DNA of 64,000 bases from Planctomycetia bacterium (lineage in GTDB: Bacteria > Planctomycetota > Phycisphaerae > UBA1845 > UTPLA1), in contig JABTTW010000001.1 of NCBI GenBank assembly GCA_015075745.1, positions 496,001-560,000 of the forward strand. The letters run 5' to 3'. The translations under genes and the position numbers were made by a program. This document shows positions 13,034-43,987 of the stretch, piece by piece. Within the stretch, counting starts at the first letter, position 1; every line of letters starts with the position of its first letter. The notes beneath the pieces were generated by a model. The model was not told where the DNA came from and did no database searches. It saw only the letters and a list, made by a program, of their open reading frames with translations.

Positions 13034-13628
13034 GGTTTGCCTTTTTGTCGGGTGGGTCATTTTAGCGGGGAGCGGCGCGGGCGTTTTCGATCCAAAGGGG
13101 CTGAGGGGTCCAGGGTGAAGACGGGGGCTTTGATGGCGCGGGCGGCGGGATTGCTGGTGGTCCGTCGCCAAACGGCAAGCCGCTTCGTTGGTCGCGCGCA
13201 AGTGCTGCAAAATGGAAGGTGACATATAGTGACACACGCGATTTTTTTCGTTTGCAACTCTTGTGGCGGGCATGGGTTGGGGCTGTTCGCGGTTTGCGTG
13301 GTTTTTGGTGGAAACGATGTGAGGCGCGAGGGTGTAGGCGATAGGCTTTAGGCTTTAGGCTGTAGGTATGGGGTGTCGGGCTTGGGGTAGAGGTTTTTGG
13401 TAGCGGTGACATCGGACGCTGCCTTCTTCCGGGGTGGTGGAATGGTCTCCAGCTATAGAATCTCATAGCTTGATCCTTGCTCATCGTTCGCGCGGATGAG
13501 GCGCGGCGAGAGAAATCGGAAGGGTAAAAGGTGGAGCGAAAATCAGATTGGCCCGGTGTCACCCCCTCGAAGGGCTTCTTCGCGGCCGATACGGATGAAC
13601 ACTCAAGGATTGGCGAGTATGGCGTGCT
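13034..13628. other. Repeat-bearing spacer without a recognisable gene
   Basis: No frame here has a ribosome site or protein-family features. The spacer holds one REP-like 19-mer (13165-13183) and a small direct repeat around 13335-13360 in which TAGGCTTTAGGCT recurs. It also contains T-rich and G-rich simple stretches. Confidence 0.5.
13165..13183 (+). repeat. REP-like 19-mer, isolated copy
   Basis: TCGCCAAACGGCAAGCCGC matches the copies at 21825, 43196 and 43942 exactly, and the reverse copy at 43283 over 16 bases. It can form a short hairpin, TTGCC with GGCGA across GTTT on the other strand. It lies in a spacer upstream of mobA. Confidence 0.8.
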
Positions 13629-20224: not shown

Positions 20225-21871
20225 TCAGGGGTGGCGCGGGCCCCATTCGTCGATGACGACGTGCTCTTTGCCCTCGGGGAGGTATTTGAGCGGCGGCGGG
20301 AGGGAGATGCGGCTCAGTTCTTTGAGGGCGCGGAGTTTATCGGGCGGGTCGAGCCTTGGTCGAGCGCGGCTGCGCGCGCCGGAGACGAAGTCGTCGGCGC
20401 ACTCGTCGCGGCAGACGTTAACCGGGCCCTTCTGGGAGACGCCGGAGCCGGCTTTGTTTTCGATGCCTTCGAGCTTTGTTGTGGTCTGGTTGTCGATGAG
20501 GCCGGACTCGATGGCGTTGTCGAAGAAGCGGGTGACGGTGGTTTCGCCGGTGAGGCGGATAGGGATTTCGCAGTTTGAAAAACGATTCTGCTCCAGGGTG
20601 ACATCCTTACTGGTCGTGGCGAGCACGGCGACTTTGCAGGCGTCGAACAGGTTCCTGCGGATTGACTCGCGGGCGGAGTCGTGGCCCTGTTTTTGGCCGT
20701 AGGCGCTCGCGATCAGGTCCTTGTCGTCATCCCACCAGAGCCACACCCCCCTACCGCAGCGTGCGAAGTCGTTGGCGTCGATCTGATTGCCGCGGCCGTG
20801 CTCGATGGAGACGCCGTTGTCGCAATCGGCGATGTCGTTGCCCTTGATGACGCTGTTTGAGGAGTAACCGGCCCAGACGCCGTGGACGCAGTGGTGGAGT
20901 TTGTTTTCCTGGAAGATGTTGCCGTCGGAGAAGGTGGCCTCGATACCGTTGGCGACGGCGTGGGAGAAGTCGTTGCGGTAGACGATGTTGCGATTGCAGC
21001 CGCCTTCGCCGGTGCGCTGGGTGGTTTCGTGGCCGGCGTAGAGGAAGAAGCCGTCGCCGCCGTGGGTGGCGCGGTTGTAGGCGAAGATGTTGTCGGAGCA
21101 CTGTTCGTAAACAAGGATGCCGGTGGAGTCCTGGCCGCGGGCGTAGACGCCGTGGGAGTAGCCGCGGATGCAGTAGTCGAAGCGGTTGCCGAGGACTTTG
21201 CAGTGGTTCGACCGCCACATGGCGAGGCCCCAGCCGGACATGAAGGACATGTCGTTGTCGATGATGGTGGCGTTGTCGCAGTTGACGAGACAGATGCCGT
21301 TCTGGCCGTCGCGGGCACGGCAGTTTTTGATGGTGACGTTGTCGCAGTTGCTCAGGTAGATGCCTGCGCCGTACCAAACCCATTGGGAGTGATCATTTTC
21401 GTGGCCCCATAGCCAGTCGTCGGTGTGTTCGTTTTCGGGGGTGCTTTTTAGATGCTGGCGGAAGTTGTTGGAGACGTCGCAGTTTTCGATGGTGAGGCCG
21501 GAGGCGTATTGAGCGCTAATCGCGATTCTAAAGCCTCGGATACTGGCATTTCTGATCGTAACGTTTTTCGCATTTATCACGCTTATCGCGACCAACGAAT
21601 ACTTGTTGGGCGGCGTATCGGCAGTGGAGCCCATGATCTCAGAATCCGCGAAGTCCACCGTCACCCCATCGGTGCGAATCTGGAACGACCCAGTGCTCCA
21701 CGGCTTTTCAACCTTTACGCGCGAACGAACGAAAGTCTCGCTGGTCTTGATCTCGCGCTGGTCGGACATGGAGATTTCGAGGGGCGCAGGAGCGCATCCC
21801 GCAATGAGAACCAGCATGACAGCCTCGCCAAACGGCAAGCCGCGTCGAATGGGTACTCTGATGCAAGGCAT
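20225..21871 (-). CDS. Right-handed beta-helix (PbH1/NosD-like) lipoprotein
   Basis: The start at 21871 follows CGGAG. A short lipoprotein signal ends in the lipobox LIAGC (residues 22-26), so the protein is membrane-anchored on the outside. The body is a series of parallel beta-helix rungs, with repeats such as GLTIENCDVSNN, NVTIKNCRARDGQNGICL, NATIIDNDMSFMSGWGLAM and SVIKGNDIADCDNGVSIEHG. This fold is used by pectate lyases, other polysaccharide lyases and NosD-like proteins; no catalytic set could be identified. Residues 9-14 (RGLPFG) of the signal peptide are encoded by a REP-like copy. Confidence 0.75.
   Translation of the reverse strand: MPCIRVPIRRGLPFGEAVMLVLIAGCAPAPLEISMSDQREIKTSETFVRSRVKVEKPWSTGSFQIRTDGVTVDFADSEIMGSTADTPPNKYSLVAISVINAKNVTIRNASIRGFRIAISAQYASGLTIENCDVSNNFRQHLKSTPENEHTDDWLWGHENDHSQWVWYGAGIYLSNCDNVTIKNCRARDGQNGICLVNCDNATIIDNDMSFMSGWGLAMWRSNHCKVLGNRFDYCIRGYSHGVYARGQDSTGILVYEQCSDNIFAYNRATHGGDGFFLYAGHETTQRTGEGGCNRNIVYRNDFSHAVANGIEATFSDGNIFQENKLHHCVHGVWAGYSSNSVIKGNDIADCDNGVSIEHGRGNQIDANDFARCGRGVWLWWDDDKDLIASAYGQKQGHDSARESIRRNLFDACKVAVLATTSKDVTLEQNRFSNCEIPIRLTGETTVTRFFDNAIESGLIDNQTTTKLEGIENKAGSGVSQKGPVNVCRDECADDFVSGARSRARPRLDPPDKLRALKELSRISLPPPLKYLPEGKEHVVIDEWGPRHP
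21825..21843 (+). repeat. REP-like 19-mer inside a signal-peptide coding region
   Basis: TCGCCAAACGGCAAGCCGC, identical to the copies around the RAYT gene. It lies within the first 16 codons of the beta-helix lipoprotein gene and is read there as RGLPFGE without breaking the frame. Confidence 0.85.
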
Positions 21872-23806: not shown

Positions 23807-24852
23807 TGCAGAACCGGCCGGACACGCCGACCCACCCCGGCGGCGATACGGTGCAGATGGAGGAGACGGCGAAGTTTCTCCGAAGTCTCGGGCACGAAGT
23901 GGCGCTGGATTACACGCTGAGACCGGATCTCTCCAACGTTGACATCGTACACTTGTTCAATCTGACGCGGCCGTTTGAGACGCTGGCGCAGGCGCGCAAC
24001 GCGATCGCGCGGGGTAAGCCGTTTGTGCTGTCGAGCGTCTATTGGGATCTGGAGTCGGCGGTACCGGCGGATGCGTATGAGTTTCCGCGCAATATCCTCA
24101 GAAAGTGCCTGTCGGACGGCACTCGAGCGCGGCTGCGGGGCTTGCTGGGGCGCGGGTATGGACAGGGCGCGGCGGCTGCACGGGATGCGCAGGCGGAGAT
24201 ACTTAGACACGCGAGGATGATCCTGCCGAATTCCGTTGCCGAGATGGAACATATTATCGAGAAATTTCCCGGCCTACCGCGAGAGCGGTTTCGCGTGGTT
24301 ATGAACGGGATCAACAGGCCCGAGACGCAACCGCAGGGCGCGGAGCGGAAGATGTTCGTCTGCGCCGGGGCCATCGGTCCGCGCAAGAACCAGCTCCATC
24401 TTGTCAAAGCGTTTCGCGAACTGCCGGGCGAGACGTTGCTGGTGATCGGGCAGCCATCGCAGGGCAGCGAGCGATATGCGGCGGCGATGCGAGGCGCGGC
24501 GGGCGGCAATGTGCGGTTTCGCGAGCGCGTCGATCATGCCGAGATGTCGGCCATCTGGCGCGGGGCGAAGGCCTGCGTGCAGCCTTCGTACATCGAGACG
24601 CCGGGGCTTTCGGCGATGGAGGCGCTGGCCGCGGGGACGCCGATCGTGGTGGCGGACGTGCCGCCGGTGCGGGAGTACTTCGGCGATCTGGCGCATTACT
24701 GCGAACCGGGCTCGCCGGGGAGCATCGCCGCGGCATGCCGTGCGGCGATGGCGGGACCTTGTCCTGATGGACGGGCATTCGCTGACCGATACGAATGGAC
24801 GAAGGCACTGGCCCCGCTGGCCGATGCATACAATGAATTGACCCGTAGTTGA
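23791..24852 (+). CDS. GT4-family glycosyltransferase
   Basis: This transferase probably uses a nucleotide sugar to build a surface glycan. The N-terminus PRILMQNRPDTPTHPGGDTV fits the first strand and glycine loop of a GT-B fold. The C-terminal domain has VCAGAIGPRKNQLHLVKAF and the E-x7-E motif in YIETPGLSAMEALAAGTPI. The GTG at 23791 has GGGAG at 23779-23783 upstream and keeps the first beta strand; the ATG at 23806, overlapping the wecB stop, is the alternative. Acceptor and donor are unknown, but linkage to wecB suggests a ManNAc- or GlcNAc-containing glycan. Confidence 0.82.
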   Translation: MPRILMQNRPDTPTHPGGDTVQMEETAKFLRSLGHEVALDYTLRPDLSNVDIVHLFNLTRPFETLAQARNAIARGKPFVLSSVYWDLESAVPADAYEFPRNILRKCLSDGTRARLRGLLGRGYGQGAAAARDAQAEILRHARMILPNSVAEMEHIIEKFPGLPRERFRVVMNGINRPETQPQGAERKMFVCAGAIGPRKNQLHLVKAFRELPGETLLVIGQPSQGSERYAAAMRGAAGGNVRFRERVDHAEMSAIWRGAKACVQPSYIETPGLSAMEALAAGTPIVVADVPPVREYFGDLAHYCEPGSPGSIAAACRAAMAGPCPDGRAFADRYEWTKALAPLADAYNELTRS

Positions 24853-39646: not shown

Positions 39647-42600
39647 TTATTCAAGGTCGGCAAGGTGCCGTTCGAGCATTTCTATCTGACTTGACAAATC
39701 CGCGGCGCGTGCTTTCGCGGCCTCGACCACCGACGGATCGGCCCGGGCGACGAAGTCCGCATTGCCCAATCGGGCGGACTCGCGGGACAGAACGCCGCGC
39801 AGCTCGGTCAGCTTCGCCTCTTCGGTCTTCTTCACCTCTGCTAAATCGACGAGGCCCGCGACCGGGGCATACACCTGCACCATGCCGCAGACGCGGCTCA
39901 TTGAACCGTCGGGCTTGGAAGCGCCTGCGCCGATGTCCATCGCGTCGCAGCCGGCGAGCGGGATGATGAAATCGCGAAAGCCGGTGAGCATCGACGAGAC
40001 CGACGCATCGCACTGCACCACAATCTTCGGAAGCGTGCGCAGCGACGGCTCTTTGGCCTTGCCGCGATAGTCGTTGACCACGGCGCGCATGTCGCGCACG
40101 GCGCGAATGACCTCCTGCACCGCCTCCATCTTTGCCTCGACGGCCTTGTCGCGCAGGTCGCCGTTCGCATCGGGCCACTTGGCCACGATGAGCGTCGCCT
40201 CGGCCTTGCCCACTGAGCGCAGGCCGCGGTCGGGGGCGGCAGCGCTGAGCTGCTCCCAGATGGCCTCGCTGACGAACGGGACAACGGGCTGAAGAAGTCG
40301 CAGGAGCTGGTCGAGGACGAAGACCATGACTTGCTGGGCGGCGGCGCGCTCGGACCCGGCGAGGCGTGGCTTGGTCATCTCGATGTACCAACTGCAATAC
40401 TCGTCCCACATGAAGCGATAGACCGCCCCCATCGCCTCGCTGAAGCGATAACGATCGAGCGATTCGTTCACCTGCTCCACGCAGGCCGACAGGCGCGAGA
40501 GAATCCAGCGATCGACGAAGCCGAGATTGGCCGGGTCCAGCTCTTGCGGCGTGTAGCCGTCGAGATTTGGAATGACGAAGCCGGTCGAGGCCTGCCAGAG
40601 CTTGTTGCAGAAGTTGCGGCCCTTCTCGAACTTTTCGCTGACGTTGATCGAGCGGCCGTCGGGCAGCTTCTTCGGCTTGACCGGCAGGCGGATGTCCTGC
40701 GTCTCGGTGGCGAGCTCCGCGAGGGTGTAGCGCAGGGCGTCGGCGCCGTACTCCTCGATGATGTCCACGGGATCGACGCCGTTGCCGAGGGTCTTGGACA
40801 TCTTGCGCCCCTGGCCGTCCTGAATGACCGGATGGATGACGACGTCGGCGAAAGGAACTTCGCCCATGTTGTAGAGGCCGGTGATGACCATGCGGGCGAC
40901 CCAGAGGGTGATGATTTCGCGCGCGGTGGAGAGCACGGACGTGGGATAATAATAGTTGAGCAGATTCTGATCCGAGCCGTGCGCGTGATCCGAGGGCGTT
41001 GCTTGATCCGAGGGCGTTGCTTGATCCGAGCCGCGACCGTGAGGGAGCGGGCCAGCCACGTCGGTATTCCTCGCATCCGCTCCAAAACCAGCATCGGGTG
41101 TTCCTGGACTTCCATCGATCATCGCGGCATCAGGCTCGCTGGTACCGCTCCCTAACGGTCGCGGCTCGGATCGGTGCGCGTCGGGCCAGCCGAGGGTTGA
41201 GTGCGGCCAGAGGGCGGAGGAGAACCAGGTGTCGAGGACGTCGGGGTCTTGCGTGAAGCCCTCGGCCAGCAATTTGTCCTCTATTTCTGGAAACCCCGGT
41301 GCAACACACATCAAGAGGATTGTGGTCTTCGCTTCAACGCTTGGCCAAAGATGTAGGTGAACCCCAGCTTTTTGATCCTTGCTAAGCTCAAGGTCGTCAA
41401 ATCCCTTTAAGTGGAGACCAGCCCAATTCCATGAATCGGCATCCTTGTGCGGAAACCAAGTTAAAGAATCTGAGCCATCCGCGATACTAACGAACTGTTT
41501 GGTCCAAATCGGTATTCGATGTCCCCACCAGAGTTGGCGGCTGATGCACCAGTCGCGCTTTTCGCTGAGCCAGTCGATGTAGGTTTTTGCGTACCGCTCG
41601 GGGTGGAACTTCACCTTGCCGCTTTTCACCGCGTCGATCGCCATCTGGGCGAGGCCCGGCAGTAGCGCGCCTTGATCCGAGCCGCGACCGTGAGGGAGCG
41701 GGCCAACCACGCCGGTATTCCTCGCATCCGCTCCAAAACCAGCATCGGGTGTTCCTGGTCTTCCATCGATCATCGCGGCATCAGGCAAACCGGTACCGCT
41801 CCCTAACGGTCGCGGCTCGGATTTTGCGTGCTCGATATACTCCTTCAAATATGGCGTCTGGATGCGGGCAAACTCCTCCTCCGTTAGATCGCCCATCTTG
41901 ACGAACCACTGATCGGAGAGGTACGGCTCGATCGGCGAATTGCTGCGGTCGGAGTGGGCCAATTCAATCTGCCGATCCTCGATCTTTTCCACCAGGGCCA
42001 GCGCTTCAAGGTCGGCGACGACCTTCTTTCTCGCATCGGCGAGCTTCATGTCCTTGTACGGCCCGCCGTGCTCGTTCACCTTGCCATCCGGTGTTATCAC
42101 ATTGATCACCGGCAGGTCATGCCGCTGGCCCACTTCGTAGTCGTTGAAATCGTGGCCGGGGGTGATCTTCACGCAGCCGGTGCCGAGGCTGGGGTCTGCC
42201 CACTCGTCGCAGACCAGGGGAATCTCGCGGTCCACCAGCGGCAGCAGAACCATCCGCCCCGCCTTGGCCATGTCGCGGAGCTTCATCAACGTCGGCAGCA
42301 GGTTCGTCTTGCGATCGGCGATGTCTTCGAGCTGCGCATGAATCGCCGGCTTTTCCTTTTCGCTCGCCTCGCGGAGCTTTATCTGAAGCTGCGTCTCGGC
42401 GACCTCCAGCGCCGCGTTCGGCTCGGGGTGAACGGCCACCGCCGTATCGGCCAGCATCGTCTCCGGGCGGGTCGTGGCGATGTGCACGTGCGTCGGCTCG
42501 CCGCTCTTGGCGTCCTTAATCGGATACTTGAAGTGGTAGAAGTGCCCCTTGACCTGCTCGTGGTAGACCTCGTCGTCGGCCACGGCGGTCTGAAGCTGCG

Positions 42601-43147: not shown

Positions 43148-43195
43148 GCGGCGATTATCGAGGAGCGGCGCGGGAGGTTCAAGCGGGGGGAGGAA

Positions 43196-43214
43196 TCGCC
43201 AAACGGCAAGCCGC
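43196..43214 (+). repeat. REP-like 19-mer, left of the RAYT gene (forward)
   Basis: TCGCCAAACGGCAAGCCGC. It forms an inverted pair with the copy at 43283 and lies between the valS start and the RAYT stop codon. Confidence 0.85.
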
Positions 43215-43282
43215 GAAGCCGGCTGCCGAGAGTCGGCGCTTTTCGCGAGACATTCGGCCGCTTGCCTGTTATTACCGAAGTG

Positions 43283-43298
43283 GCTTGCCGTTTGGCGA
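43283..43298 (-). repeat. REP-like copy, left of the RAYT gene (reverse)
   Basis: GCTTGCCGTTTGGCGA, the reverse complement of 16 bases of the 19-mer. It is 32 bp from the 3' end of the RAYT gene, facing the copy at 43196. Together they make a BIME-like inverted pair. Confidence 0.8.
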
Positions 43299-43330
43299 TG
43301 GATAACCAACCAGATAAAATCGTGAGAAAA

Positions 43331-43942
43331 TCATCGCCGTTCGCTCCACTCACCACGGTAAGGCTTCACAAAGGTGTATTCTTGTCTCGGGAGTCCCGAC
43401 TTCCCGGGATTGTCCTCTACATACTTGATAACGCCACAAACCTCATCCGCGCTGCTGAGGAATCGCTTATATTTGTCCTGGCTCCAAACTGGGTGATTCT
43501 GAAAACTCCCCGCCACGTTTCTCACGCTCACGGCAGATGCTTCAATCAAGGCTGTCATCATGACTTCCGCGCGATCCTGATGTCGCCTCATGACCAGGTG
43601 AGCGTGATTGGAGAGTATTGCACAGGCAAGACACGTGTACTCGCGAGACGCGACGACGTCCGTGAACGCCGTCGCAATCGCCTGCCGCTCGGCGAGATCG
43701 AACCACAGCACTTTATGCTTTAGATAAGACCGGGCATCGATTTGATGTCGCCTCAACTCACTTAGCGCGGGTTGGGTTGCCTTTCGGCCGAAGTGTATGT
43801 CGCCGGCCTGCCGCAACTGGGGTACTCGGATTTGCCGGGAAAGGCTTCCGCGAGGATCGTTCGGCAGCCAGTGACCGTAGCCTGTCAAAATGATGTGATG
43901 GGCGATGACCACGAGCGGGATCGTAGCATTTCTATATGCCAT
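43331..43942 (-). CDS. REP-associated tyrosine transposase (RAYT, IS200/TnpA-REP type)
   Basis: A Y1/HUH transposase of 203 residues. The family hallmark AHHIILTGYGHWLPNDPRGS is near the N-terminus; the HUH metal site is NHAHLVM (His113, His115) and a candidate catalytic Tyr is in VIKYVEDNP (Tyr174). RAYTs process single-stranded REP hairpins and are usually single-copy, domesticated genes. Here REP-like copies lie on both sides: at 43283 (reverse), at 43196, and at 43942-43960, which overlaps the ATG. A GTG 12 codons downstream is an alternative start. The gene appears intact. Confidence 0.87.
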   Translation of the reverse strand: MAYRNATIPLVVIAHHIILTGYGHWLPNDPRGSLSRQIRVPQLRQAGDIHFGRKATQPALSELRRHQIDARSYLKHKVLWFDLAERQAIATAFTDVVASREYTCLACAILSNHAHLVMRRHQDRAEVMMTALIEASAVSVRNVAGSFQNHPVWSQDKYKRFLSSADEVCGVIKYVEDNPGKSGLPRQEYTFVKPYRGEWSERR

Positions 43943-43960
43943 CGCCAAACGGCAAGCCGC
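43942..43960 (+). repeat. REP-like 19-mer overlapping the RAYT start
   Basis: TCGCCAAACGGCAAGCCGC, exact match to the other copies. Its first base is the third-strand partner of the ATG of the RAYT gene, so REP and start codon adjoin. A hairpin here would sit over the ribosome site. Confidence 0.85.
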
Positions 43961-43987
43961 TTCCAGGCCCGCGGGCGAGGAGCGTAT

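Follow-up and report, generated by a model that had tools for sequence, protein, structure and literature searches.

The closest described counterparts of the locus studied here are the REPtrons of RAYT/TnpA_REP transposases, which, as outlined in two studies (Nunvar, 2010, PMC2817692; Bertels and Rainey, 2011, PMC3116915), combine a single-copy gene for an HUH/Y1 enzyme, whose open reading frame is placed between inverted repeats, with a multicopy repeat that is specific to the enzyme lineage. These features recur in the window analysed here, a stretch of 64,000 nucleotides from the genome of a Planctomycetia bacterium. Unlike in the REPtrons of these accounts, the protein scores below the cut-offs of the RAYT and Y1_Tnp models, the repeat is a single unit without a GT[AG]G foot and without a long stem, and its dispersed copies are solitary instead of being arranged as REPINs. 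The TIRYTs and their TIRtrons (TIR motif GGGGWSAS), as presented in PMC3733652, likewise comprise RAYT-like genes with inverted non-GTAG repeats that are sometimes multicopy; here, by contrast, the repeat is short, shows a conserved skeleton and in many relatives is found inside the gene as well. In-gene REPs have been described for subclass 2.4 of TnpA_REP as insertions that are generally located between HuH and Y (Quentin, 2018, PMC6006769). Both cases share in-frame REPs within the transposase gene, with one of our two sites (site 2) residing between HuH and Y, but whereas the insertions of subclass 2.4 are described in this work as part of a variable extension, we find no change in length, a second site that falls within a conserved motif ahead of HuH, and a sequence that follows the flanking repeat. 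Finally, the Class 3 TnpA_Y1 proteins of the same study (PMC6006769) share the occurrence in Planctomycetes and atypical flanking repeats, but are described with a Y----Q (EQ) motif where the lineage of the window protein has YxxxNP.

The center of the locus is formed by an open reading frame on the minus strand that is surrounded by copies of the 19-mer TCGCCAAACGGCAAGCCGC (Table 1). An earlier note on this DNA had listed forward copies at 13165, 21825, 43196 and 43942, which we all recover as exact matches, and a reverse copy at 43283, which does exist on the minus strand but with one mismatch and a start three nucleotides before the position given. Its claim that the gene is bracketed by inverted REP-like copies is borne out by arms of 25 nt (43277-43301 and 43939-43963) that are 96% complementary. 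A second inverted repeat is perfect over 18 nt (43195-43212 and 43282-43299) with a spacer of 69 nt. Together with a match at 24730 containing three mismatches, we count six matches in the window compared to a mean of 0.07 in dinucleotide shuffles. The first ATG of the reading frame shares the last base of the upstream REP copy.

Table 1. Features of the locus and dispersed repeat copies in the window.
Feature	Coordinates	Strand	Remarks
RAYT-like HUH/Y1 transposase ORF	43331..43948	-	205 aa; TTG start 43948, first ATG 43942-43940
RAYT codons AERQA (site 1)	43679..43693	-	Site where many relatives hold the REP in the gene; decayed here
REP copy, 5' side of RAYT	43942..43960	+	Exact 19-mer; overlaps RAYT start
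REP copy, 3' side of RAYT	43280..43298	-	One mismatch
REP copy, inverted partner of 43280-43298	43196..43214	+	Exact; ~50 bp upstream of valS
REPIN-like inverted pair	43196..43298	.	One strand predicted as single long hairpin, -34.6 kcal/mol (DNA parameters)
Solitary REP copy	13165..13183	+	Exact; followed by element B
Solitary REP copy	21825..21843	+	Exact; no adjoining element B flank observed

The reading frame is open and its product contains the motifs HWLPNDPRGS and NHAHLVM, in agreement with the intact RAYT proposed in the earlier note. On its own, the protein gives weak matches to Pfam Y1_Tnp (PF01797) and NCBIfam REP_Tyr_transpos (NF047646), both below their curated cut-offs (14.2 against 23 bits; 36.3 against 80 bits), whereas in a family alignment (A1) all 13 members match NF047646, with a best E-value of 1.1e-12, and five of the 13 match Pfam. 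A profile built from 45 relatives finds the solved TnpArep structure 4er8 with an E-value of 9.9e-5. The AF2 model (pLDDT 92.5) displays an order of strands and helices that fits the HUH/Y1 (TnpA_Y1) superfamily, and Foldseek searches with this model retrieve the transposases of ISDra2, 4er8 and IS608 (best E-values 1.6e-5 and 1.7e-5) at modest TM-scores, so that profile, model and structure search all place the protein in the TnpA_IS200/TnpA_REP fold. The HUH motif, the one tyrosine and the downstream asparagine of the superfamily are all present: in an alignment of 45 rows, His 115 and Tyr 176 are invariant and His 117 and Asn 180 are conserved in at least 90%. The gene occurs as single copy in its own genome, where the next match has an E-value of 4e-5 at 28% identity and where 12 PF01797 genes are all distinct from it, while the repeat is multicopy and flanks the ORF in inverted orientation, as in REPtrons. 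Searches with PADLOC and PHROGs returned nothing, and no relatives were found in the viral contigs searched. With its scores below cut-off and its repeats devoid of a GT[AG]G foot, the protein is a divergent RAYT-like enzyme and not a canonical RAYT; of the IS200-type RAYT identity assigned previously, the RAYT-type HUH/Y1 enzyme stands.

For a view of the family, we assembled 81 non-redundant loci, consisting of the best 80 of 97 found and of 13 from the own and other genomes, less 12 duplicates (of 93). A skeleton 14-mer, GCSAARMSGCAAGC, is found with at most one mismatch within 300 bp in 65 of the 81 loci of this set; a 250-bp scan locates it upstream in 54 and downstream in 48 of them, and 16 loci contain no such sequence in their flanks. 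Because the skeleton was derived from the same loci, the test resides in the control and not in the raw count: a stretch of 500 bp located 1.0-1.5 kb upstream contains the 14-mer in none of 65 cases. By eye, the 14-mer shows no canonical long stem, and a GT[AG]G foot is seen within 10 nt in 7 and 3 of 135 flank repeats, which does not rise above the background of 3.7% per 10-nt window. The type of repeat clusters on the RAYT tree, with 28 changes compared to a mean of 46.5 in shuffles (80 rows, with near relatives inflating the difference). Phylogeny and repeat sequence, whose comparison had been suggested in the earlier note, thus co-vary across the family. Instead of falling into a single clade, the A-type rows require five changes for six rows, a number that is as low in 65 of 500 shuffles. 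In a sister lineage, termed type II (FWLPNDPRGSWS; L047-L068, L106-L112), genes are often flanked by hairpins starting with GTTTAGCG or similar, unlike the type I repeat.

In its own genome of 5.01 Mb, the 19-mer is present in 34 copies, 31 of which are exact and three contain one mismatch, with none at exactly two mismatches. As the copies are near-identical, a recent spread appears plausible from their sequence. The 19-mer is invariant and its flanks differ, although many copies share flanks; as the 19-mer itself served to select the copies, diverged ones may have escaped the search. A control with the reversed pattern gave 15 matches at up to two mismatches, and none at one mismatch in the own genome; because the repeat is quasi-symmetric, we judge from the compared letters that these 15 are the same repeats, one base out of register. 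The same-genus genomes G318 and G330 are devoid of copies at up to one mismatch. At the same threshold, nine of the 101 genomes of an order sample, its own included, contain any copy, with G342 being the sole other genome with many (14), and any copy is found in 4 of 294 genomes of a phylum sample. The genome-wide count called for previously thus reveals a repeat that is abundant here and rare elsewhere. At L136 (near 1500) and L014 (~1600), with similar upstream flanks, the 19-mer was observed in a longer version (TCGCCAA, ~25 nt and AAGCC).

With a looser core, 114 genomes yield 184 copies in G342, 32 in the own genome (G000), 14 in G302, eight in G353 and at most four in any other. In G342, an invariant 16-mer core is embedded in at least three families of flanks (L283-L302 contigs). 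Among 13 hand-chosen type I carriers, five contain at least 20 copies of a skeleton 15-mer (G342 189, G309 66, G000 33, G220 27, G266 27) and the other eight have up to seven, compared to none with 20 copies among 13 equally hand-chosen non-carriers (largest 8). Three genomes with A-type RAYTs, G356, G401 and G353, hold only 2, 1 and 8 copies. Conversely, G302 and G307, fragmented MAGs that are 94% and 80% complete, contain 14 A-type and 14 B-type cores, respectively, and the RAYTs found in them are of type II only. The repeat in relatives lacking any RAYT, which the earlier note had named as evidence against its reading, is therefore encountered in part, since the cores of G302 are accompanied by a distant type II RAYT alone. 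The enrichment in inverted pairs that had been predicted did not materialize: an opposite-strand core with up to two mismatches within 150 nt is found for two of 34 copies in the own genome, which together form its sole inverted pair, the one beside the RAYT, and for two of the 50 copies examined in G342, again at the RAYT only (four at up to three mismatches). In neither genome are most copies arranged as inverted pairs, as would be the case in a REPIN population.

The surroundings of the gene can be compared with relatives. The RAYT is located between valS (Pfam tRNA-synt_1) and a gene encoding an SNase domain, which is followed by an aspartokinase-like gene. A matching valS was identified in 16 of 17 genomes of the same family, with the compared loci extending only 1.5 kb, and within this reach a RAYT is found only in the own genome and in G342, where it is also situated upstream of valS but in opposite orientation. 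Simply inverting the RAYT in one of the two genomes seems not to account for the order of repeats. Five of the 16 loci (G330, G318, G359, G353, G338), including that of G330 from the same genus, hold the aspartokinase and SNase-like genes beside valS without a RAYT. Within valS itself, two in-frame repeats of 147 nt (41675-41821 and 41024-41170, SEPRPLGSG...PLPHGRGSD) are 95% identical; beyond them, the 1.25 Mb of genome sampled contain only short partial matches.

The most surprising part of the analysis is the presence of the repeat inside the transposase reading frame of relatives. We searched for exact matches of at least 12 nt between gene bodies and their 400-bp flanks, independently of the skeleton, and found them mainly at codons 73-79 (site 1, AKRQA, forward) and 126-134 (site 2, mostly reverse), with few at 57-64 (numbering of the L096 protein). 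The 14-mer is contained in frame in 32 of the 81 genes, with 17 at each site and two at both, and is absent from the remaining 49. L221 and L280 carry one type at site 2 and in the flank and another at site 1, which argues for a turnover of internal sites. In G309, whose locus is devoid of a flank 14-mer, the copy inside the RAYT (C31:2337) reads GCGAAGCGGCAAGCC, by far the commonest among the variants listed in this genome. We rejected the idea that the sites are insertions, as no change in length accompanies them: the WLP[NG]D motif and HUH are 87 residues apart in 12 of 15 loci that carry site 1 and in 49 of 51 that lack it, and 33 residues separate HUH from the W motif in 12 of 15 loci with site 2 and in 36 of 51 without it, each distance being measurable in 66 of 81 loci and some W distances being clear mis-hits of the pattern. 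The type II RAYTs were rejected as equal cases, with gene-to-flank matches of at least 14 nt in only two of 17, namely L048, where the match is located at the end of the gene, and L050, where it spans 25 nt. In the window RAYT, site 1 reads GCCGAGCGGCAGGC, and the longest match between gene and flank is 10 nt, the same as in shuffles; this gene has lost its internal repeat.

Since site 1 encodes a near-invariant protein motif, its letters are constrained, and the repeat itself encodes AKRQA in one frame, so that the REP-like stretches might be regarded as chance products of this conserved motif and of GC-rich codon use. Such an origin is hardly credible in view of the numbers: gene-to-flank matches of at least 15 nt occur in 28 of 81 loci compared to a mean of 0.62 in shuffles of synonymous codons (largest 2, 60 shuffles), matches of at least 17 nt in 21 loci compared to 0.37, and pairing of genes with the flanks of other loci gives 3.5 and 1.6 for the two lengths. 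Internal and flanking 14-mers are identical in 21 of the 29 loci with both, comprising eight different sequences (with near relatives not being independent), against a mean of 3.9 and a largest value of 11 in 10000 permutations, and site 2, mostly in opposite orientation, resides in a more variable stretch of the protein. We tentatively propose that in this lineage the recognition sequence of the enzyme might also form part of its own coding frame, fixed at codons 73-79 and ~126-134 and mostly inverted around the codons of HUH, and be kept identical to the repeats outside. If so, the gene could hold a REPIN-like pair in its coding sequence, which might serve self-regulation, if the enzyme or a hairpin were to act on the gene or its mRNA, or seed new types of REPs. 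In the RAYT and REP literature covered by our search, we found no report of fixed, length-neutral internal sites that track the flanking REP.

Other explanations concern the dispersed copies. The genome contains a second repeat of ~240 nt, element B, which gave 53 matches in a search of the own genome, several of them beside PF01797 transposase genes, and which is inverted around L330, L332 and L335 and thus represents a second RAYT-like system, itself multicopy. Element B starts at most 80 nt downstream of 11 of the 34 REP copies on the same strand, and therefore not every 19-mer need be moved by the window RAYT; together with the flanks common to many copies, this could make most dispersed 19-mers passengers, as part or neighbours of element B spread by the PF01797 system. 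We regard this as unlikely, since 23 of the 34 copies are not beside B, 76 of the 91 B elements sampled are without a REP in the adjoining 250 nt, the 19-mer stays invariant amid differing flanks (in copies picked by the 19-mer) and the same core occurs in G342 in the other flank families described above. The invariant core within divergent flanks would also suit a polar host signal, such as the site of a chromosome-organising protein, that is kept by selection, with the RAYT being incidental or domesticated. In favor of such a signal, the orientation of the REPs tracks regional GC skew in 29 of 34 copies of the own genome (27 of 34 after repeat masking) and in 37 of 47 copies of G342 with the RAYT-carrying piece left out (33 of 33 where |skew| exceeds 0.05); counted by piece, the agreement is 15 of 18 (p 0.0075, with the C27 contigs taken as two pieces and one tie set aside). 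Gene direction was dismissed as determinant of orientation for the own genome (17 of 34), and in G342 29 of 51 copies agree with the major coding strand, both based on codon-model gene prediction. Genes on either strand share the skew (r 0.71 and 0.90), the pattern expected from a replication strand bias, though its sign flips often along the own genome. A host signal nevertheless appears quite improbable: the 19-mer is absent from G318 and G330 of the same genus, repeat identity tracks the RAYT, and B elements without a REP follow the skew as well (50 of 76), so that in this genome polarity extends beyond the 19-mer. Moreover, HUH enzymes inserting into the lagging strand predict the same polarity, which fits an insertion that would target a single-stranded lagging-strand template, by analogy to what is described for IS608 and ISDra2 (PMC6006769).

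Taken together, the locus is real, REPtron-like and part of a divergent lineage; the earlier reading holds in its core, but not with regard to inverted pairs. We consider it likely that the locus constitutes a REPtron, present as a single copy, from a planctomycete-centred lineage of RAYT-like HUH/Y1 enzymes, whose member here recognises, cuts and joins its repeat. The enzyme would most likely bind the 14-19-nt repeat in single-stranded DNA and employ its histidine pair and one tyrosine; the cut would be placed at the repeat, and strand transfer would join the repeat elsewhere. Non-autonomous copies would thereby spread, perhaps at present, and the gene itself would stay single. Against this stand the unpaired dispersed copies, the type II-only genomes G302 and G307, the low-copy A-type carriers, the lack of a GT[AG]G foot and, by eye, of a long stem, and the 11 copies abutting element B. 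That gene and repeat evolve together is shown by the many relatives that carry the same repeat beside the gene and inside its reading frame. The origin of REPs, the switch of a RAYT from one REP to another and the persistence of a transposase that does not move are open questions of the field. With dozens of genomes in which the type of repeat is evident from flank and gene body alike, this lineage makes the co-evolution of enzyme and repeat directly testable outside Proteobacteria, and it points to the coding DNA of the gene itself as a possible target or source of REPs.
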